A stretch of DNA of 64,000 nucleotides from Kordia antarctica (lineage in GTDB: Bacteria > Bacteroidota > Bacteroidia > Flavobacteriales > Flavobacteriaceae). The notes beneath the pieces are model-generated. The model was given only the letters and a program-made list of their open reading frames with translations. It was not told where the DNA came from and did not search any database. The translations under genes and the position numbers were made by a program. The stretch's first letter is position 1. Every line of letters starts with the position of its first letter. The stretch is taken from NCBI RefSeq assembly GCF_009901525.1, contig NZ_CP019288.1, positions 3,315,501 through 3,379,500 of the forward strand. The letters are read 5' to 3'. Shown here in pieces: positions 13,921 through 24,663 of this stretch.

Positions 13921-15861
13921 TTAATTATTTTCCTTTTCAATCATAAACTGTAACGTGGTTGTTCCTTTTATATTTGTTTCTAAAATGACTTTTTTAGAAG
14001 TTACTTTACTTCCATAATTGCGACTGCTTGTATAATCTGCAATGCGAATTGTGGTAGAAGCATCAACCGTTATTTTTGAAGAACCAGCATTCGTTCTTAC
14101 TAAAATAGCATTATCTTTTATTTCGACACCAATTTTTTCGTCAAAATGTAAATTTCGCGTGATTTTATGTTCGTTTTCACAAGAAATAACATCGATACAT
14201 GTCAGCTTAAAGTTTTCTTTTTCAATGTGAAACGTACGTTCATGCGTTACAGCATCTTCCAAACGTTGGTAACCTTTATGCTTTCCTGAAATCGTAGCAT
14301 TTGTTGCCGAATGTTCCGTTGCAACGTCAAAAGGTTCCGCAATATCACTAATTCCCCAATTGCCAATCATAGGCGCTAGTTCTTCTCCGTCAACTTCCAA
14401 TCCGTTATGATATGCCGTTGATTTCATTTTTGTTTTCAGTGCCAAATCGCCAGTATATGTATAACAACCTGGATCTACGATAATATCGGTTGCATCGAGC
14501 ATGAGTTCAAAGCTAAACAAATCGTTGTGTCCGTGTCCGCCGCGACCTTTCATTCCGACTTCGCCAACATCTGTAATAAAATAATTTTGCGCATCTTTTA
14601 CAGTTACAAATCCGCCTTCTTTATAATAATACGATTCAAAAGTATTTTGTGTTGTAAAGCCTAAATTCTCGGTTGCTTTTGTTCCAAATACTTCAAATGC
14701 GGAATGATATTTTTTGTTTGTACTGTTTAATTTTTCATCTTGAAAAAACAAACTCGCCAATTGCAATAAGTTTGTATGATTGTTCAAAGAAACGTCATCA
14801 TTTTGAAATACAGAAGCACTATCGTTATCTCCAATAATTGGTGTTAACTGGTTTGGTTTTGTGACATCACGCGTGAATTCGCATGCATTTTTCAAGACTT
14901 TCAATGTGTTTTCTTTCACTTTCAAACCTGCGCGTTGCATCACTACGAAAGAAATAAAATAAAATTCTACGACTAATCTGTGATACGGAATCGATTTTTC
15001 AAAGTTGACGCCATCTGCAATAAATTGCAAGTGAAATTCTTTTTCGGTGTGTTTTACGGCGTAGTTGTACCACGTTTTTGCTTCTGAGTAAAATCCTTTG
15101 AAGGTACTTCCTAAAAGTAATAATGCGGTTAGGTTTGCCGAATAATGATTTCCACGAATATCTGTATATTCTATAGTTCGCCACAAGAAAATTCCGTGAA
15201 GCAACAAAATTTCATTCAACACATTTACAACCGCATCTGTATTTGAAGCTTCTAGTAAAATTTCTCGCAATTGAATCAAATTAATCGTTCGCACCGAAAC
15301 TTCCATCGGATACCAATTCACAGAAAAACCTATTGGATTCTTGCTTTTCCAATCGGATAAAATCTCATGAATATACGCTAATTGTGAAGCATCTTTTTGC
15401 AATTGATACGCACGTGCCACAGGAATTAAAAAACTCAAACGTGATAATTCCCAAGGAAATTTTACATCAAATTCTTTTGCTTTATTTTTTTCGTAGAATG
15501 AATAGCCTTTAAAGTACTTGTTTTTCCATGAATGATTTTCGCGCCAATCCGTATTCCAAGAAATTGGTTGTGTGAAAGTATAATTTACATCAAATACCGA
15601 AATGGTTCCGTTTACGATTTCATTAGCATTTAAAATGGTTTGTGTTTGAAGCGTTTCAGGAAGCGATTCCGCTGAAAAATCATCAGAAAACAATAAACTT
15701 TTTGCGTTCCACGTGTTTTTAGATTTGTTTACTTTTTGATGAATTTTTGGTTCAATTTTCTGCCAGAACTTCGTTTTAAAATACATTTTCAACTTTACAA
15801 GTTGCACAAATCGATACCAAACTACAGGAATTGGCTTGGATAAAATGGTTTTTATGTTCAT
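13921..15861 (-). CDS. Heparinase II/III family protein
   Basis: From the ATG at 15861 the product has 646 residues, a normal length for the family. Landmarks are NWYPMEVSVRTINL near 182, RGNHYSANLTALLLLG near 236, PYHRLVVEF at 292, GDNDSA near 345 and a clear GHGHNDLFSF at 442 followed by DPGCYTYTGD. These match the alpha/alpha-toroid plus beta-sandwich layout of heparinase II/III and related lyases. The open frame runs 64 codons further upstream, but that stretch overlaps the previous gene and is Lys/Gln-rich with no domain signal. A promoter-like box at 15906-15913 also favours the internal start. There is no signal peptide. It probably cleaves or edits the uronate-containing polymer of this locus. 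A related protein is at 196-2076. Confidence 0.8.
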   Translation of the reverse strand: MNIKTILSKPIPVVWYRFVQLVKLKMYFKTKFWQKIEPKIHQKVNKSKNTWNAKSLLFSDDFSAESLPETLQTQTILNANEIVNGTISVFDVNYTFTQPISWNTDWRENHSWKNKYFKGYSFYEKNKAKEFDVKFPWELSRLSFLIPVARAYQLQKDASQLAYIHEILSDWKSKNPIGFSVNWYPMEVSVRTINLIQLREILLEASNTDAVVNVLNEILLLHGIFLWRTIEYTDIRGNHYSANLTALLLLGSTFKGFYSEAKTWYNYAVKHTEKEFHLQFIADGVNFEKSIPYHRLVVEFYFISFVVMQRAGLKVKENTLKVLKNACEFTRDVTKPNQLTPIIGDNDSASVFQNDDVSLNNHTNLLQLASLFFQDEKLNSTNKKYHSAFEVFGTKATENLGFTTQNTFESYYYKEGGFVTVKDAQNYFITDVGEVGMKGRGGHGHNDLFSFELMLDATDIIVDPGCYTYTGDLALKTKMKSTAYHNGLEVDGEELAPMIGNWGISDIAEPFDVATEHSATNATISGKHKGYQRLEDAVTHERTFHIEKENFKLTCIDVISCENEHKITRNLHFDEKIGVEIKDNAILVRTNAGSSKITVDASTTIRIADYTSSRNYGSKVTSKKVILETNIKGTTTLQFMIEKENN

Positions 15862-15905
15862 ACTGATAAACTGTCGTATATAAATAAAATGCTTGAAATA
15901 TGCTG

Positions 15906-15913
15906 CAAATTTA
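15906..15913 (-). promoter_or_regulatory. Putative -7 box upstream of the second heparinase-like gene
   Basis: TAAATTTG on the minus strand matches TAnnTTTG and lies 44 bases before the ATG at 15861, inside the gap after the beta-helix gene. No clear TTG is present at -33. It supports the shorter start chosen for the heparinase-like gene. Confidence 0.35.
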
Positions 15914-15979
15914 TTGTTTTGATTTTTGATAGACAGTTTCGATCCTAAAAAAGATGTGAAATACTGAGCTATTTTCTGT

Positions 15980-17419
15980 TTACACTGTTGTATTTGGATA
16001 ATCTTGGTTATGCATCCAATCTGCATCTGTGTCATTTTCAATTTCATGCGCATTGTTATAGCATTTATAAAAAGTGACTGTATTATTATCTATGTTTATT
16101 GGACATTGTAATTCTATAGGATGATTTTTTCGTTTATTTAAGATAAACTTTTTTGTTACTTGCAGTCCTTCATGATCTTTATCCGAACCGTTGTAGATTA
16201 ATAGCTTTCCAAAGCTACAATCAATATTAGTAAATAAGCTTTTCTTTTCAATTTTGATACTTGCATGCGTAAGATCAACACCATTTAAGTGTGTATTTGC
16301 ACAACCATAGATTCCGCCAAGTACAATTCCAGGATAAATAGCTTTATTATGTACACCTAATCCAGAAGAAAGTGTACCTCCAATTATGTGCAATCCTAAG
16401 CAATTCATTGCGCGTATGGTTTCTCCTTCCAAAGTTCCACCTGCAAACTTGCAGTTCATTAATACAATATCTCTAATACGCCAAGGCAATTGCCCGCCTT
16501 CTTGGTAACTTCTCATGTAAATAGCTCTTTTGGCTCTTGCTCTCATTACAATGAAAACATTTTCTGCTTTCCATTTGGAAACCGCTGGGCAATAGGTTAA
16601 TCCCGCTGATGGCGTTTTATCAGGCGCAATTAATACGATTACATTTGTATCATATCCATTATTCAAATCCTTTTTAGCGTTTGTATGAATGTTTTCTACG
16701 CTAATGCTTAAGTTTTTAAGTCCGCCGCCAGAATTATTTGCTGCATTTGCATAATATCTTAAAAATCCATACTCATCTCTTTTAACTCCTGTGAGAGCTT
16801 CGTCAACTTCTGTATATTCATGAAAAATAAGAAGGCGCGTTCCGTGTGAAGATGCGCCCATATTCCCTTCACCTTCAATCACAACTCCGTACTGTATTGA
16901 ATTTATCGCTGAGAAAAATTTGTATCTTCCTGCAGGAATGTAGATCGTTTTTCCTGGCCGCGTGTATACTTGGTAATTAAATATGGTAATCTCTGGATTT
17001 GGAATAGTTGTTGGCTCATTAGCCCGACCTTTGTTCGGATTGGCAATTTTAGGAGATTGAACATTAAATTGCGCATATGCTAAGGATGCATTTAATGCAA
17101 AAGATGCATCTCTACTTGGGCTAAAATCTGGCAATGCACCAAACCAGCGTAAATTTAGTGCTCCTCGATCCCATTGACGAATCCATCTTCCATCAGCTAC
17201 ATTTTCAGCTTTACAAACCATTCCATCGTAATTAGCATTGTAACCTACTTTATAGTAACTCGTATCATCAAAAAAAGGATTCACAGTACAGAATTTATCA
17301 AAAATAAAAAATCCGCCACCGCCATCATTTTTATCCCAAAATCCTTTTACATATAACATATCTCCGTCTTTCGGAGTAGCTAATTCATACAATCCAGCTA
17401 AATTTTCTACTACTGTCAT
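15980..17419 (-). CDS. Right-handed beta-helix (pectate-lyase-like/tailspike-like) protein, copy A
   Basis: A 479-residue protein without a signal peptide. Its N-terminal part (to about residue 100) has NDGGGGFFIFD and ALNLRWFGALPDFSPS, which resembles the entry region of phage tailspikes and pectate-lyase-3-like proteins ('xxWFGAxxD'). Next comes RPGKTIYIPAGRYKF, the usual first coil of such beta-helices, and then short repeating beta turns to about residue 420. It is a paralog of the next gene (17596-19092), sharing long near-identical stretches such as LINCK/WFAG-type coils and the C-terminal NNAHEIENDTDADWMHNQ. It carries an 18-residue peptide (125-142) that the paralog has at another place. 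A polysaccharide-binding or cleaving role is likely from fold and context. The catalytic residues were not identified. Confidence 0.65.
   Translation of the reverse strand: MTVVENLAGLYELATPKDGDMLYVKGFWDKNDGGGGFFIFDKFCTVNPFFDDTSYYKVGYNANYDGMVCKAENVADGRWIRQWDRGALNLRWFGALPDFSPSRDASFALNASLAYAQFNVQSPKIANPNKGRANEPTTIPNPEITIFNYQVYTRPGKTIYIPAGRYKFFSAINSIQYGVVIEGEGNMGASSHGTRLLIFHEYTEVDEALTGVKRDEYGFLRYYANAANNSGGGLKNLSISVENIHTNAKKDLNNGYDTNVIVLIAPDKTPSAGLTYCPAVSKWKAENVFIVMRARAKRAIYMRSYQEGGQLPWRIRDIVLMNCKFAGGTLEGETIRAMNCLGLHIIGGTLSSGLGVHNKAIYPGIVLGGIYGCANTHLNGVDLTHASIKIEKKSLFTNIDCSFGKLLIYNGSDKDHEGLQVTKKFILNKRKNHPIELQCPINIDNNTVTFYKCYNNAHEIENDTDADWMHNQDYPNTTV
16994..17047 (-). repeat. Inserted 18-residue peptide repeat, copy in beta-helix A
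   Basis: It encodes IANPNKGRANEPTTIPNP at residues 125-142 of beta-helix A. The other copy is in beta-helix B at residues 18-35 with 13 of 18 identical residues. Each copy is absent from the matching position of the other paralog, so it behaves as an in-frame insertion. Confidence 0.7.
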
Positions 17420-17517
17420 ATTTTTTTGTGTTTGCCTTTACGATATGTTGTCTTAAAAGTTTCAAACCACAAGATATAAAGTAATTTTATATGAATTGAT
17501 CTGTTAAAGTTTTAAAT

Positions 17518-17554
17518 AAAAAAAGCACATCAACTTTGAAAGTTAACGCACTTT
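17518..17554 (-). terminator. Rho-independent terminator after beta-helix B gene
   Basis: On the minus strand a stem of 13 or more pairs (several G-U) is followed by a run of seven T. It lies 42 bases after the stop of the 17596-19092 gene. It is about 85% identical to the terminator at 19373-19409. Confidence 0.75.
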
Positions 17555-17595
17555 ATTTAAATTTTAAATAAAAAATTAACGAATATATTTTCTAT

Positions 17596-19092
17596 TTAAA
17601 CTGATGTATTTGGGCAAGCTTGATTGTGCATCCAATCTGCATCAGTATCACATTCAATTTCATGCGCATTATTGTAACACTTGTAGTCAGTTACGGTGTT
17701 GTTATCTATATTTAAAGGGCATAACTGCTCCTGAGAAAGGTCAGTCCGTTTATTTAAAATAAATCTTTTAGTCACATGTAACGCTTTGTGATTCTTATCA
17801 GCTCCATTATAAATTAATAATCTCCCAAATCGACAATCTATATTTACAAGATTACTTGTTTTCCAAATTTTTATAATTCCATGACTTAAATCTACGTTAC
17901 TTAAATGCGTATTGGAGCATCCATGAATTCCTGTTAATACTATTCCTGGCTTAACTCGCAATGGTGGAAGATTTGGGTCTGTCGGGTGCACTAAACCTAA
18001 ACCTGAAGAAAAGAAACCTCCAATAATATGTAATCCTGAAACATTTTCTGCTCTAACAGTTTCTCCTTCTATACTTGCGCCTGCAAACCAACAATTTATT
18101 AAGGCAATGTCACGTATTCTCCAAGGTAAAGTGCCTCCACTCTGTTGATTACTCTTCATATAAATAGCTCTTTTCGCATTAGCACCTAATCCCATGACAA
18201 TATTTTCCGCTTTCCATTTTGCCACCGCAGGTAAATCTATGCCATTAGGAGGAACGCTTCCTGTTGAAATAAGTGAAACTATATTTGCATCAAACCCTTT
18301 TTCTACATAATTAGCGTCTGCATCCGCAGGTGGGTTTAAATCTATAACATCAAATGTCAAGTCTTTAATTCCTCCTCCTGAACTGTGAGCTTCATTAGAA
18401 TAAAATCTTAGGAATCCAAACCCATTATTTCCTATAATTTGATCAATTCCTAAATCTTCATACCTATGTGCTATTAATAATCGTGTTCCATTTGCTGAAG
18501 TTCCAATGTTTCCTTCACCTTGAATAACAACACCAAATGTTATGGTAGTGATAATACTTCTGAAATAATATCTACCTGCAGGAATAAAAATTGTTTTTCC
18601 AGGTCTTGTGTAATGTACATCATTGAAAATTGTTCCGTTGGATAAAGGGTCAAATTGCGCATATTCTAACGCTGCATTTAAAGCTTTTGATGCATTTCCA
18701 ATATCACCAGGCATTCCTCCAAACCAACGTAAATTTAAAGCTCCTCTATCCCATTCTCTAATCCATCTTCCAGTTGTGTTGTTTTCGGATTTACAAATCA
18801 TTCCATCATAATTTGGATTATTTCCAATTTTATAATGCTCCGCTAAGTTTACAGGACTTGGCGATGCTATCAATCTGTATACCGGGTCTAAAGTGGAAGA
18901 AGCATCAAAGATGAAAAAGCCGCCACCGCCATCGTTTTTAGTTCCATAACCTTTTACATAAACCATATCTCCGTCTGATAGTACAAATGGATTCGGAATC
19001 GTCGCTGGTTCATTAGGTTGACCTGCGTTAGGATTGGGTATTGTAGCACTAGTTAAGCTATACAATCCTGCTAAATTTTCTACTGTTATCAT
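17596..19092 (-). CDS. Right-handed beta-helix (pectate-lyase-like/tailspike-like) protein, copy B
   Basis: A 498-residue paralog of the 15980-17419 product, colinear over its whole length and also without signal peptide. Shared landmarks are MITVENLAGLYSL at the start, NDGGGGFFIFD, ALNLRWFGGMPGD, TRPGKTIFIPAGRYYF, and the C-terminal DTDADWMHNQ. It carries the 18-residue IPNPNAGQPNEPATIPNP at residues 18-35, where copy A has nothing. Both genes have a similar A-rich leader just before the ATG (ACACAAAAAAT), and a terminator lies after this gene and before copy A. This supports a tandem duplication. It may bind or cut the polysaccharide made by the locus. The enzymatic activity is not proven by any residue seen. 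Confidence 0.65.
   Translation of the reverse strand: MITVENLAGLYSLTSATIPNPNAGQPNEPATIPNPFVLSDGDMVYVKGYGTKNDGGGGFFIFDASSTLDPVYRLIASPSPVNLAEHYKIGNNPNYDGMICKSENNTTGRWIREWDRGALNLRWFGGMPGDIGNASKALNAALEYAQFDPLSNGTIFNDVHYTRPGKTIFIPAGRYYFRSIITTITFGVVIQGEGNIGTSANGTRLLIAHRYEDLGIDQIIGNNGFGFLRFYSNEAHSSGGGIKDLTFDVIDLNPPADADANYVEKGFDANIVSLISTGSVPPNGIDLPAVAKWKAENIVMGLGANAKRAIYMKSNQQSGGTLPWRIRDIALINCWFAGASIEGETVRAENVSGLHIIGGFFSSGLGLVHPTDPNLPPLRVKPGIVLTGIHGCSNTHLSNVDLSHGIIKIWKTSNLVNIDCRFGRLLIYNGADKNHKALHVTKRFILNKRTDLSQEQLCPLNIDNNTVTDYKCYNNAHEIECDTDADWMHNQACPNTSV
18988..19041 (-). repeat. Inserted 18-residue peptide repeat, copy in beta-helix B
   Basis: It encodes IPNPNAGQPNEPATIPNP at residues 18-35. Internally it repeats ATIPNP with a 14-residue period. 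The related copy is at 16994-17047 on the same strand. Confidence 0.7.
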
Positions 19093-19439: not shown

Positions 19440-21557
19440 CTAGTTATCTTGAATTAAGAATGTTGCTCTGGTAGTTTGTACCATATCATCAAAGTCAATA
19501 GCGAATTTGTTGTTTTGAATCGCATCAAACATATGAATTAATTCTTCATACTGTCCTTTCTCTGATGTTTTAGAAGCCAATTCGTTTACTTTAACGCCAT
19601 AACCTGTGAGTTTCATGAAATCATCCATGATAATCGTTTTTGTGTCGTAATGCACTTCTAAGTTCTCTTTTTGATACGCTTTGTTTCCAACAGCAAAGTA
19701 TTGTAAACTTCCAACAGAACCATCTTCGTATTTTAATAAGATAGAAACATTGTCATCATTACGAATTTGATCATTATTAGGGCTTATTTTTTCAACACTA
19801 ACCGACTGAATTTTAGATTCCGTTAAAAACGTAATTAAGTCAATAAAGTGACATACTTCTCCAATAACTCTTCCACCATGTTCGTGTAACGCATCTGTTG
19901 CAGGACGGAATCCGGCATTGATACGGTAACTTATATATAATGGATTTTCACGAGTCGTTGTATGCTTTTTAATTTCTTGCGCATATTTACTAAAGCGTCT
20001 GTTAAAACCTGTTAGTAATAATGGTTTGTTTTGAATGCTTTCATCATTGTAGAAATCAACAATTTTGTCTAAGTCTTCTGGCGTTGTTGCTAGTGGTTTT
20101 TCAACAAATACATGTTTTCCCGCTTGCAATGAACGCAATGTTAATGACGCGTGATCTTTGTGTTGTGTGGTAATAAATACAAGATCAACTTCTGGATCTG
20201 TTAATACATCTTCTATTTCCGAGGTTGTATATTTTGCATCAAAATGCGTAGCAACTGTTTTTCCTTTGTGTCCAGTTCTGTTTACAACTGCATAGAGCGA
20301 ATATTTGTCTTTCATTTTCTCCATGTTTGGCAAATGCATTGCCGTTGCAAAACTTCCTGCGCCAACTAAAGCAACATTTAGTTTTCCTTTTTTGACGTAA
20401 GTATCATTTATGGCAACTTTTGCTCTTGGAGCTGCAGTTACATCATTGTCGTACGAAAGTAATACAATGATTGGTTTTTCCGGACTTTGCAAAGATGCGT
20501 ACGCTTCTTCTGCTTGTTCTATTGGATATGTTTTGTTGATTAACGGAGTAAGGTTTACTTTTCCTTCGTGAATCATTTTTAGGTATTCCGTCATGTTCCG
20601 ATTTTCCGTCCAACGAACATATGCGTATGGATAATCGTGTCCTTTGTCTTCGTATTCTCTGTCGTAACGTCCAGGTCCGTAAGAGGTAGATATTTTAAAG
20701 TCTAATTCTTTTTGATAGATATCTTCACGTTTGATTTCCATTCCAGTAACTCCAACTAAGATAACGCGCCCTTTCTTTTTACACGCTTTAAATGCTTCTG
20801 ATAACGGTTCGCTACTTGCGGTTGCTGCTGTGAATATTACGGCATCAGTTCCGTATCCGCCAGTAAAATCTTTTGTTTTCTTTACTAAATCGTCTCTCGT
20901 AGGATTTAATATAATGTCAGCACCTAATTCTTTTGCAATTTGTAAACGATCATCATTTATATCACTTACAATCGTACGAACACCTGAGTTTTTCAAGAAT
21001 TGAACCGTTAGTAATCCTAAGATTCCTGCGCCAATAACCACACAATATTCTCCTAAACGTAAGTCTGCACGACGAACTCCTTGCAATGCAATTCCACCAA
21101 GTGTTACGGTAGAAGCTAATTTTAAATCCAATCCTTCAGGGACTTTCATTACTAAGTTTTCTGGAACTACTGCATATTCTGCATGATTTGCAATTCCTGC
21201 GCCAGCTGCAGCAACTTTGTCTCCAACTTGTACGTTTTGAACGCCTTCTCCAACAGCAATTACAATTCCTGAGTTAGAATAGCCTGTTGGTGTTCCGTAT
21301 TTTACTTTTTGCTGTACTTTAGAGAATGCGCGCGCAATTCCTTGCGATTTTGCAAGTGCAATTACCTTTTTTAAGTTTTCTGGTTGCTTGATGGCTCTCA
21401 TCAGTAGATTTTCTCCACTGTTTCCAACACTTTTTAATTCTGTTCCCGCAGAAATACAGCTATACGATACTGCAATAAGTACTTCTCCTGCTGATAATAT
21501 TGGTGATGGCACTTCTTCTGCCATTACCTTTCCTTTTTTTATGATTGCTTGTAACAT
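19440..21557 (-). CDS. Two-domain oxidoreductase (MDR-like domain fused to Gfo/Idh/MocA domain)
   Basis: A 705-residue paralog of the 2127-4241 product with the same domain order. The MDR part has CVVIGAGILGLLTVQ, and the Gfo/Idh/MocA part has VALVGAGSFATAMHLP, EKPLATTPEDLD and GFNRRFSKYAQEI. As in the other copy the zinc-ligand positions are changed: SAGTE where GxCGTD is expected, and GYSNSG where GHE is expected. It is the last gene of the operon, coupled to the SGNH gene by a 1-base overlap and followed by a strong terminator. It probably oxidises or reduces a sugar or nucleotide-sugar carbon. The two copies differ enough to have different substrates. Confidence 0.85.
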   Translation of the reverse strand: MLQAIIKKGKVMAEEVPSPILSAGEVLIAVSYSCISAGTELKSVGNSGENLLMRAIKQPENLKKVIALAKSQGIARAFSKVQQKVKYGTPTGYSNSGIVIAVGEGVQNVQVGDKVAAAGAGIANHAEYAVVPENLVMKVPEGLDLKLASTVTLGGIALQGVRRADLRLGEYCVVIGAGILGLLTVQFLKNSGVRTIVSDINDDRLQIAKELGADIILNPTRDDLVKKTKDFTGGYGTDAVIFTAATASSEPLSEAFKACKKKGRVILVGVTGMEIKREDIYQKELDFKISTSYGPGRYDREYEDKGHDYPYAYVRWTENRNMTEYLKMIHEGKVNLTPLINKTYPIEQAEEAYASLQSPEKPIIVLLSYDNDVTAAPRAKVAINDTYVKKGKLNVALVGAGSFATAMHLPNMEKMKDKYSLYAVVNRTGHKGKTVATHFDAKYTTSEIEDVLTDPEVDLVFITTQHKDHASLTLRSLQAGKHVFVEKPLATTPEDLDKIVDFYNDESIQNKPLLLTGFNRRFSKYAQEIKKHTTTRENPLYISYRINAGFRPATDALHEHGGRVIGEVCHFIDLITFLTESKIQSVSVEKISPNNDQIRNDDNVSILLKYEDGSVGSLQYFAVGNKAYQKENLEVHYDTKTIIMDDFMKLTGYGVKVNELASKTSEKGQYEELIHMFDAIQNNKFAIDFDDMVQTTRATFLIQDN

Positions 21558-23224
21558 TATAGATTGAGTTCTTTTATGATATATTTTGCTAATTTTTCGT
21601 GACCTTCTGCATTGAAATGTAATACATCTATTTTACCTTTTTTTTCTCCATTTGTATAAAGTCCAAAATTGTCTTTCGATAAAATGTATGACGCATCTAC
21701 AAATGCGACATTGTTTTGTACGCAGTATTTTTTTACCGCTTCCACTAAGTCTTTATATTGTGCTCTTTGTGGATAGGCTGTTTTTTCATTGTTATGCCAA
21801 AAAGGCGTTAATAAAAATACATTTTGCTCTTTTGTTTTCAGTTTTGCTAATTGATCAACTACTAAAAACATGTTTTGTTGAATACGTACCCATTCTGCGG
21901 TTGTATATGAATATGAAACATTTACACGTTCTGTAAGTTCTTCTTCAAATCCTGCGTTTGGTAATAGGTTTTCGCTAGCAACACCATTATAAACAGGCAT
22001 TGCTTTTATTTCGTCAAACCAAACCGTTCCTGTTCCTCCATAAAATAAAACATGTGGTTTGATTGATGTTACTTTTTTGTCAAATTGGATCCGTGTTTTT
22101 ACTAGTTCCCAATCATGTGTTCCTGTATTAAATGTCAATCCTTTGTAAAACCATTTGCTGGTACCATCTTCAAAAATAACTTGAAAGTCTATACAATAAA
22201 GTTTGCTATTCTGAACGTTTTCAGCTTTACTCCAACCTTCAAAATCAAATGTATCGGTTGGTTTTTTTAAAAGAATATCGTCACCAGTCCATTTAGCGCT
22301 TTGTGCTTTTTCATTGACAATTTTGATTGATTTGCTTCCTGTATGCGCAATTTCAGATTCCCAACCTTCAATGTTGTCTAAATCTTGATTAAAGGTTTTC
22401 CAGTAAGCTGGAGTGTTCGTTCTAAATACGTCTTCTGTTTTCTCAGAATTAACGTCTCTAATTTCTTTGAGAACGCCTATAGTTTCAGCATTAAGCCATT
22501 TTTTGATTGCGGATCTTTTTTGATAAATATCAATATTATCTTCTACAATTTTATCAACAGCTGTTGTAATTTTTGAATTTATGTTTAAAGGAAATACCTC
22601 ATCGCTCACTGCGTTAGTAACAGCTTCATCATTGCCGTTTTTTTCGAGTTTGTTCTCTACTTTCTTATACGTTTTATTTACAATAGCTTTTACTTCTGGT
22701 CTGATGACTTCAGCTAAACCATCCCAAGGTGTTACTGCGATAAGTATGCGATCTGGGTTAATGATTTCAACACCTTTTTCAGACATTATAAATTTTTCAG
22801 GCGTTGACATTCCTCCTAAAGAAAGGTTGTAAGTAGCGTATTTGTCACCTGTAAATTGTGCCATTTTTCTAGAAACCATCTTTTGGTACGAATCCTGAAT
22901 ATCTTCTCCTTGCATTACACGCATTTGCGAGGAGCCAATGATTAAAAATTTTGGCTTTTCTGAGTACTTTAAGTTGTTCAGAACTTTATCTAGCATTTTT
23001 CCACTAGTTGGATCAAATGTTAAATCGTTTTGTGCAATTAATGAATCTATCAACGAATAGGTATTGCTTGCCATATTTTTGATACCATCATTGAACGAAA
23101 GATATGATTGTGCTTTAGGATCTTTTAAGAAGATACTTTTCACAGCGAAAGATGTCCCAAGAAATATGACTAAGGCAATTGCAACCTGAATGAGAAATAA
23201 ACGATGTTGTTTTTTCATAGCCAT
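21557..23224 (-). CDS. Membrane-anchored SGNH (AlgJ/AlgX-like) protein with embedded CBM-like domain
   Basis: A 555-residue protein with one N-terminal membrane helix (about residues 9-28) and the rest likely periplasmic. The first SGNH block is FLIIGSSQMRV (94-103), with a conserved-looking NLSLGGMSTP at 133-142. The last block is KIDVLHFNAEGHEKL (531-545), giving the Asp/His pair. Between them, residues about 280-410 form a separate beta-sandwich with GWSKAENVQ, TGTHDWELVKT and GGTGTVWFDEI, typical of CBM4/9-like jelly-roll modules. It overlaps the MBOAT gene by one base. This arrangement matches the AlgI/AlgJ pairs that O-acetylate exopolysaccharides in the periplasm, and the embedded module would hold the glycan. 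Confidence 0.7.
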   Translation of the reverse strand: MAMKKQHRLFLIQVAIALVIFLGTSFAVKSIFLKDPKAQSYLSFNDGIKNMASNTYSLIDSLIAQNDLTFDPTSGKMLDKVLNNLKYSEKPKFLIIGSSQMRVMQGEDIQDSYQKMVSRKMAQFTGDKYATYNLSLGGMSTPEKFIMSEKGVEIINPDRILIAVTPWDGLAEVIRPEVKAIVNKTYKKVENKLEKNGNDEAVTNAVSDEVFPLNINSKITTAVDKIVEDNIDIYQKRSAIKKWLNAETIGVLKEIRDVNSEKTEDVFRTNTPAYWKTFNQDLDNIEGWESEIAHTGSKSIKIVNEKAQSAKWTGDDILLKKPTDTFDFEGWSKAENVQNSKLYCIDFQVIFEDGTSKWFYKGLTFNTGTHDWELVKTRIQFDKKVTSIKPHVLFYGGTGTVWFDEIKAMPVYNGVASENLLPNAGFEEELTERVNVSYSYTTAEWVRIQQNMFLVVDQLAKLKTKEQNVFLLTPFWHNNEKTAYPQRAQYKDLVEAVKKYCVQNNVAFVDASYILSKDNFGLYTNGEKKGKIDVLHFNAEGHEKLAKYIIKELNL

Positions 23225-24663
23225 TAGAATTGAAAATATATAAATGCTTGATTGTCATCACTTCCAAATAGTAATACTAGGAAGATTGCCAGTCCAAATA
23301 AAGCTCCTTGCAAATACGGATTGGAAAACATGTGTTGTTGCTTTTCTTCTACTTCTTTGTAATATTTTGTTCCAAAGAAATGACCTATTACGGTAATTCC
23401 AAGCAATGCAACAAACGCAATTGGAATTGTGTAATTGACAGATTCTTTTAGTGTAAACATGTTTTGTAATACTTGTGAAGCATCGCCAAATGTTTGCGCT
23501 CTAAAAAACACCCACGTAACCATTACAAATATCATGGTTAAAACCCACGCAAATACGGTATATGCAGAAGCGCCAAGTTTTGAGAATTTGAAATTTTTTG
23601 AGTATTTGGTTGAATATAATTTGTGTACAATTAATGCGGTTCCGTGCAATCCGCCCCAAACGACAAAGTTCCAGCTTGCGCCGTGCCAAAGTCCTCCAAG
23701 AAGCATGGTTAACATTAAGTTTCTGTAATAGAATATTTTTTTAGAGACTCTACTTCCTCCTAACGGAATGAATAAGTAATCCCGTAACCAGGTTGATAAA
23801 CTGATGTGCCATTTTCTCCAAAAAACAGTAATGTCGGTAGCGTTATAAGGCATGTTGAAGTTTTCCATTAAACGAAAACCTAACAATGCTGCTACACCAA
23901 TTGCCATGTCTGAATATCCTGAGAAATCGCAATAAATTTGGATACTATACGCCATTACACCAATCCAAGAAGCTAATGTTCCAAATTGATCTGGATTTGA
24001 AAATAACGGATCCGAGAAGTGTGCAATATTATCTGCTATAACTACTTTTTTTACCAATCCTAAGAGAAAATAATTCGCGGCAAGCTGAAAGTTAATATTT
24101 TTAAAATATTGATTGACTTTTAACTGCGGAATGAAATCAACGGCTCTTACAATAGGTCCGGCTACTAATTGCGGGAAGAATGTTACGTATAATGAAAACT
24201 CGAAGAAATCTTTGGAAGGTTTCAGTTTTCCGTAATAAATATCTATCGTGTAACACATGGATTGAAATGTGTAAAACGAAATTCCCACAGGCAATATTAC
24301 ATCTACAAAAAAGTTAGAACCTGCAACGTCATTGACCGTTCCTAAGAAGAAATTGACATATTTGAAGTATGCCAAAAACCCTAAGTTGGTTACCAAACTG
24401 ATAATCAAAAATAGTTTCTTCTGTTTTTGAGATTCGCTACTATGAATTTTTTTACCAGCAATATAATCGACAACCGTAGAAAATAATATCAATAGAATGA
24501 ATATCGGATTCCATGACATATAAAAGTAATAAGAAGCCAAAAGCAAGAATACAATTCTCGCTTTTAGCCTTTTATTATCGTCTTTTATACTACCTAATAC
24601 AAACCAATATATTACAAATACAATAGTAAAGAATACTAGGAAAAGAGAAGTAGAAAATATCAT
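23224..24663 (-). CDS. MBOAT family O-acyltransferase (AlgI-like)
   Basis: A 479-residue polytopic protein. Its core is the MBOAT signature: FWRKWHISLSTWLRDYLFIP near residue 290 and LGGLWHGASWNFVVWGGLHG near 330, with the presumed catalytic His in the second. Other AlgI-like stretches are LPVGISFYTFQSMCYTIDIY and FFPQLVAGPIVRA. Such proteins carry acetyl groups across the inner membrane for an SGNH partner to put on the polymer, and here that partner is the next gene (1-base overlap). The start at 24663 gives a first helix, as in AlgI/DltB proteins. Confidence 0.88.
   Translation of the reverse strand: MIFSTSLFLVFFTIVFVIYWFVLGSIKDDNKRLKARIVFLLLASYYFYMSWNPIFILLILFSTVVDYIAGKKIHSSESQKQKKLFLIISLVTNLGFLAYFKYVNFFLGTVNDVAGSNFFVDVILPVGISFYTFQSMCYTIDIYYGKLKPSKDFFEFSLYVTFFPQLVAGPIVRAVDFIPQLKVNQYFKNINFQLAANYFLLGLVKKVVIADNIAHFSDPLFSNPDQFGTLASWIGVMAYSIQIYCDFSGYSDMAIGVAALLGFRLMENFNMPYNATDITVFWRKWHISLSTWLRDYLFIPLGGSRVSKKIFYYRNLMLTMLLGGLWHGASWNFVVWGGLHGTALIVHKLYSTKYSKNFKFSKLGASAYTVFAWVLTMIFVMVTWVFFRAQTFGDASQVLQNMFTLKESVNYTIPIAFVALLGITVIGHFFGTKYYKEVEEKQQHMFSNPYLQGALFGLAIFLVLLFGSDDNQAFIYFQF

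Follow-up and report, generated by a model that had tools for sequence, protein, structure and literature searches.

The window, by which we mean the whole stretch of DNA analysed (64,000 nucleotides, positions 3,315,501-3,379,500 of the 5.5-Mb single-contig genome of Kordia antarctica), carries two tandem genes for beta-helix proteins on the minus strand: gene B (17596..19092, 498 aa), the first of the pair, and gene A (15980..17419, 479 aa), the second. Read along this strand, the genes come in the following order: an MBOAT O-acyltransferase (23224-24663) and a GDSL/SGNH-like protein (21557-23224), both of the same cluster, then a bi-domain oxidoreductase made of zinc dehydrogenase and Gfo/Idh/MocA parts (19440..21557), B, A, a heparinase II/III-like protein (PF07940, PF16889; 13921..15861) and a multi-pass membrane protein that looks Wzx-like to us, although no family matched it convincingly. 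For the heparinase-like gene we retained an inner Met (MNIKTILSKP) as the start. The longest ORF (13921-16053, minus strand) would extend 74 bases into gene A; in three relatives the ORF opens at the position corresponding to the inner Met at 15861 (646 aa), which means that this overlap is probably an artefact of the choice of start codon. We infer that the locus is an exopolysaccharide cluster with O-acylation.

Of 60 relatives first searched with B, 5 matched, counting the genome itself; one of these matches was weak and lay over a stretch with stops. Searching with an alignment, we found 6 genes in 4 of 11 genomes of the genus (the two genes of the window included). Of the 397 genomes drawn across the family, 7 matched; in 4 of these the match covered no more than parts of the first 140 profile positions and lay in other proteins. 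The B-only search of genome contigs, the alignment search of viral contigs and the B search of phages returned no result. The family considered below has seven members: A, B, copies 1 and 2 of K. algicida OT-1, one protein each of K. periserrulae and K. aestuariivivens and, as the seventh full-length member, a protein of an uncultured Lacinutrix sp. By eye, the gene neighbourhood recurs in part in the three Kordia records and the Lacinutrix record: Lacinutrix has all five genes around the beta-helix gene, the K. algicida pair has no adjoining heparinase gene, and in K. aestuariivivens the SGNH and beta-helix genes stand without an oxidoreductase gene between them. One can also notice that the second beta-helix gene of K. 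algicida is followed by a convergent gene of 708 aa, which we take to be Tex-like, at the place held by the heparinase in the other three relatives, and that three minus-strand genes separate the oxidoreductase and beta-helix genes of K. periserrulae (by eye, a multi-pass membrane, a glycosyltransferase-like and a flippase-like protein).

Against PF12708, whose cut-off is 27, both A (20.6, residues 93-248) and B (24.3, residues 120-201) score below the threshold, as do the K. algicida copies (25.9 and 24.0), while the Lacinutrix protein scores above it (33.0). NCBIfam gave no match, and a PDB sequence search with the alignment gave nothing convincing (one match, E 0.96). Both proteins match PHROG 4250, "EPS depolymerase", a PHROG without a curated cut-off, with E 2.7e-6 and 2.1e-7. 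The predicted structures are weak (mean pLDDT 50.1 and 51.1, the regions of interest here falling below 50). A Foldseek search with the low-confidence model of A (pLDDT 51) listed phage tailspikes, WceF and alginate epimerases, the WceF chains having a best E of 3.5e-3 and TM-scores of 0.26-0.33 by query length. A and B are probably tailspike/WceF-like beta-helix enzymes, predicted to act on the cell's own exopolysaccharide.

A and B align collinearly with 61% protein identity, so that the initial annotation was right to describe them as colinear paralogs. The last 50 gap-free residues are 80% identical between the two proteins, windows in mid-protein just 42-58%, and the same 50 residues of A or B are 50-56% identical to those of the three relatives compared. 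What singles out the pair is a short peptide. B carries IPNPNAGQPNEPATIPNP at residues 18-35 (18988..19041, minus strand; site 1), where A reads ELATPKDGD at residues 12-20 (17360..17386, minus strand) without insert, as the initial annotation had described. A carries IANPNKGRANEPTTIPNP at residues 125-142 (16994..17047, minus strand; site 2). At site 2, B had been said to have nothing; the peptide of A is indeed there, but B has a shorter loop in its place (DPLSNG, within DPLSNGTIFN, residues 148-157, 18622..18651, minus strand). The 14-residue internal period of the TIPNP motif also holds (I18 and I32 in B, I125 and I139 in A). Sites 1 and 2 are non-homologous positions, both in the alignment of A with B and in that of the family, and the peptide is in frame at each of them.

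The two peptides share 13 of 18 residues and, to about the same extent as had been noticed, 41 of 54 nucleotides. Aligning the DNA of the paralogs, as the initial annotation had proposed for placing the borders of the insertion, gives an ungapped in-frame block of 59 nt with 45 identities (nucleotides 368-426 of A and 47-105 of B). Its edges are sharp: identity falls to 10/30 in the 30 nt upstream of the 54-nt segment and to 7/30 downstream. Away from the diagonals used by the A-B alignment, this block is the sole ungapped match between the two genes with a score of at least 16 (+1/-1). Compared as proteins, A and B reach an off-diagonal score of 88, over a 58-residue stretch, of which the loop alone accounts for 77; in the 20 other pairs among the 21 that the seven family members form, this score does not exceed 38. 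When the loop of A was shuffled, the ungapped local score averaged 23 and peaked at 43, and none of 4000 shuffles reached 77; with gaps allowed and flanks trimmed the observed score is 76, the maximum in shuffles is 56, and none of 5000 reached the observed value. A 71-base DNA query around the copy in B recovered, apart from itself, five weak matches (E 0.63 to 4.1); the copy in A was missed even at E 10. This means that the DNA match between A and B is not strong taken alone, the DNA having diverged.

We looked for further copies with a degenerate DNA pattern for NEPxTIPNP in the genome itself, in the 11 genomes of the genus and in the 397 genomes drawn from the family. The exact pattern occurs twice in the genome of the window and not at all in the other 10 genomes of the genus or in the other 396 of the 397 family genomes. 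With up to three mismatches there are 13 places in the genome itself, against 5 for the reversed control; with up to two, 9 of the 11 genus genomes match at 13 places (the two exact ones included), against 1 for the control. Eight of these 13 are one recurrent NELKTIPNP-like site, which was read in the genome of the window, where it lies at 1148586 within an unrelated protein of 641 aa. Nearly identical DNA around this site occurs once each in seven other genomes of the genus; it is a conserved and apparently unrelated occurrence of TIPNP. The pattern for TIPNPN with at most one mismatch finds 12 places in the genome itself, one of them in B, against 4 for the reversed control. Three further places are in frame within long open frames (344, 718 and 1006 aa), whose 36-residue excerpts look unrelated by eye. 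Nor does the DNA of the peptide fold unusually: z is -1.76 for the copy in B (matched by 11 of 200 shuffles) and -0.26 for that in A (76 of 200). The suggestion of a mobile peptide-coding repeat, made in the initial annotation, is thus rejected on copy number in the genomes searched; its other suggestion, that only these two copies would speak for a local gene conversion, fared better, the genome-wide pattern search pointing to a local event. The shared peptide is real, non-random and local, and it is apparently old.

The state of the two sites in the family suggests which of them came first. Two proteins have an insert at site 1, namely B and, in a diverged form, K. algicida copy 1 (LTVTTIPNPNFDPDFPISSDNPETISNPDPYSASDGD); the other five have none (A, K. 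algicida copy 2, K. periserrulae, K. aestuariivivens and Lacinutrix). Site 2 is a loop of widely variable length among the seven members: four have a long one (A, K. algicida copy 2, K. periserrulae and K. aestuariivivens), two a short one (B and Lacinutrix), and K. algicida copy 1 stands in between. The K. algicida insert stands in the first of its two tandem genes, as in B, and has the same start, TIPNPN; its likeness to the insert of B gives a score of 50, which 2 of 5000 shuffles equal or exceed. The likeness of this insert to the loop of A is weak (134 of 5000 shuffles), although the TTIPNP of A at site 2 is found there as an exact string. Because an insert beginning with TIPNPN is present at site 1 of K. 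algicida copy 1, site 1 is likelier to be the older home of the peptide, and site 2 of A is likelier to be the derived location. We also considered whether the site-2 loop of A is homologous to the other long site-2 loops. Ungapped and with flanks included, the loop of K. algicida copy 2 showed a mild likeness (180 of 4000 shuffles score as high; 264 for K. periserrulae and 1297 for K. aestuariivivens). Once the flanks were cut away and gaps permitted, this likeness was gone (2285, 2794 and 2428 of 5000, respectively), and the candidate was rejected.

Over its 18 codons, few as they are for such a contrast, the peptide pair has pS 0.52 and pN 0.15, with dS 0.88 and dN 0.17. Synonymous sites have diverged and residues are mostly kept, from which we infer that the copying is old and that the loop has since been under selection. 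The pS of the peptide matches that of the 5' part of the A-B alignment (0.53) and lies below that of the rest (0.79; Fisher test on rounded counts, 0.043). Identical residues of A and B share the same codon in 49 of 69 cases before site 2 and in 89 of 194 after it, and a scan with a free break places the best break after residue 118 of A, at site 2 (52 of 5000 permutations). A raised 5' codon identity is also seen in 2 of the 20 other pairs (p 0.010 and 0.042), and the tract supposed to have been exchanged shows no rise in amino-acid identity between A and B (windows at 54-66%). In trees of separate segments, the middle of B falls among K. algicida copy 2, K. periserrulae and K. aestuariivivens (supports 96/94), while at either end B joins A and K. 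algicida copy 1 (83/87 and 70/79); the whole-protein tree is weakly supported (64 and 71). The AU test does not reject grouping B with the other paralog type in the end segments (p 0.168 and 0.123), and for the middle segment it rejects A, B and K. algicida copy 1 together by a narrow margin (p 0.049) and B with K. algicida copy 1 (0.023), though not A with B (0.062). In these sequences there are weak signs that the tandem paralogs recombine, and hints that the loop may have been copied near the edge of an exchange tract.

We consider it probable that the two peptides are copies of one Pro/Asn-rich loop of about 20 codons, copied between or within the tandem paralogs and later kept by selection. 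Site 2 of A would have received the segment from site 1; the source would be the neighbour B or else a former site-1 insert of A itself, since lost, and the route a misaligned recombination or a template switch during an exchange between the tandem genes, after which selection would have kept the residues of the loop. Among the genomes searched there was no close relative with both A and B by which the event could be dated or given a direction. In the low-confidence models, the peptide of A follows the helix around LNASLAYAQF as a loop and leads to the strand TIYIPAGRY; that of B comes after the first helix (around ENLAGLYSL) and before the strand MVYVKGY. Both positions may thus join a helix to the next strand, where an insert would be tolerated.

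The same models would suit a convergence, in which the two loops came to the same Pro/Asn-rich sequence at the level of the protein, no DNA being copied, because it does the same task where a helix meets a strand. The codons leave room for it: 5 of the 13 shared residues differ in codon, and the 8 of 13 that agree are no better than the 6.07 expected from codon usage (P 0.20). Furthermore, TIPNP is repeated inside B itself with different codons. Convergence would have to account, however, for a sharp-edged block of 59 nt and for a match as long and specific as NPN.G...NEP.TIPNP, far above the 20 other pairs. In addition, the site-1 loop of K. algicida has kept just the ends of the motif, which shows that the whole sequence is not strictly required at site 1. 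We regard convergence as unlikely, while granting it some weight.

The peptide could also be ancestral at both sites, A having lost it from site 1 and B from site 2. The initial annotation had named relatives carrying both copies as ancestral parts of the fold as an observation that would overturn copying, and a part of this was found: K. algicida copy 1 as well as B has an insert at site 1, and three members besides A are long at site 2. The other part was not: outside the genome of the window, no site-2 loop among those compared resembles the site-1 peptide, the three other long loops being unlike that of A once flanks are removed. Moreover, none of the seven proteins carries the peptide at both sites, and the Lacinutrix protein has neither. 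Two copies in one ancestral gene would still need a copying event. We hold this history to be distinctly improbable.

It is doubtful, though worth stating, that NEPxTIPNP is a portable functional loop, for instance a contact with a subunit or a glycan, usable at either of two helix-strand junctions of polysaccharide-modifying beta-helix enzymes, which was copied from one junction to the other and then selected; if so, each of the two tandem enzymes would display this element, at a different place in the fold. Finally, the in-frame presence at non-homologous sites might recall the Rickettsia palindromic elements (RPEs). A mobile peptide-coding element of that type is most improbable given the number of copies in the genomes searched, their ordinary folding, their length of 54-59 nt rather than 100-150 and their position within neighbouring paralogs. 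Of the earlier idea of a coding segment that moves or is copied in frame, the presence of such a segment at two non-homologous sites of the paralogs with the frame kept is supported, and the mobile repeat is not; most likely this is no new class of element.

If a copy of the loop is what we see, the locus offers a clean small case of a loop relocated between tandem paralogs, with the frame kept, the residues conserved and the synonymous sites diverged. Dated by sister strains, it would show the re-use of surface loops in polysaccharide-modifying beta-helices.

Several known systems can be set beside this one. WceF of Pantoea stewartii is described as a glycosidase of an EPS cluster with a tailspike-like beta-helix (PMC7949094). 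A and B would resemble it as beta-helix proteins encoded within an exopolysaccharide cluster, as we take theirs to be; they differ in that the model of A is of low confidence, its TM-scores are low and the PDB sequence search gave no convincing match. RPEs are described as palindromic, of about 100-150 bp, and lying within unrelated genes, with ten families and 44 insertions in R. conorii (PMC10969869, PMC3767692). Like them, our segment is short, coding and in frame inside existing genes; unlike those described there, it has 54-59 nt, no notable fold and two copies in two paralogs. With gene conversion or the exchange of loops between tandem paralogs, the likeness lies in neighbouring collinear genes, a weak mosaic signal and sharing at the DNA level. 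Ordinary gene conversion operates between homologous positions, whereas here the shared block stands at non-homologous sites, and hence a misaligned or template-switch event is needed.
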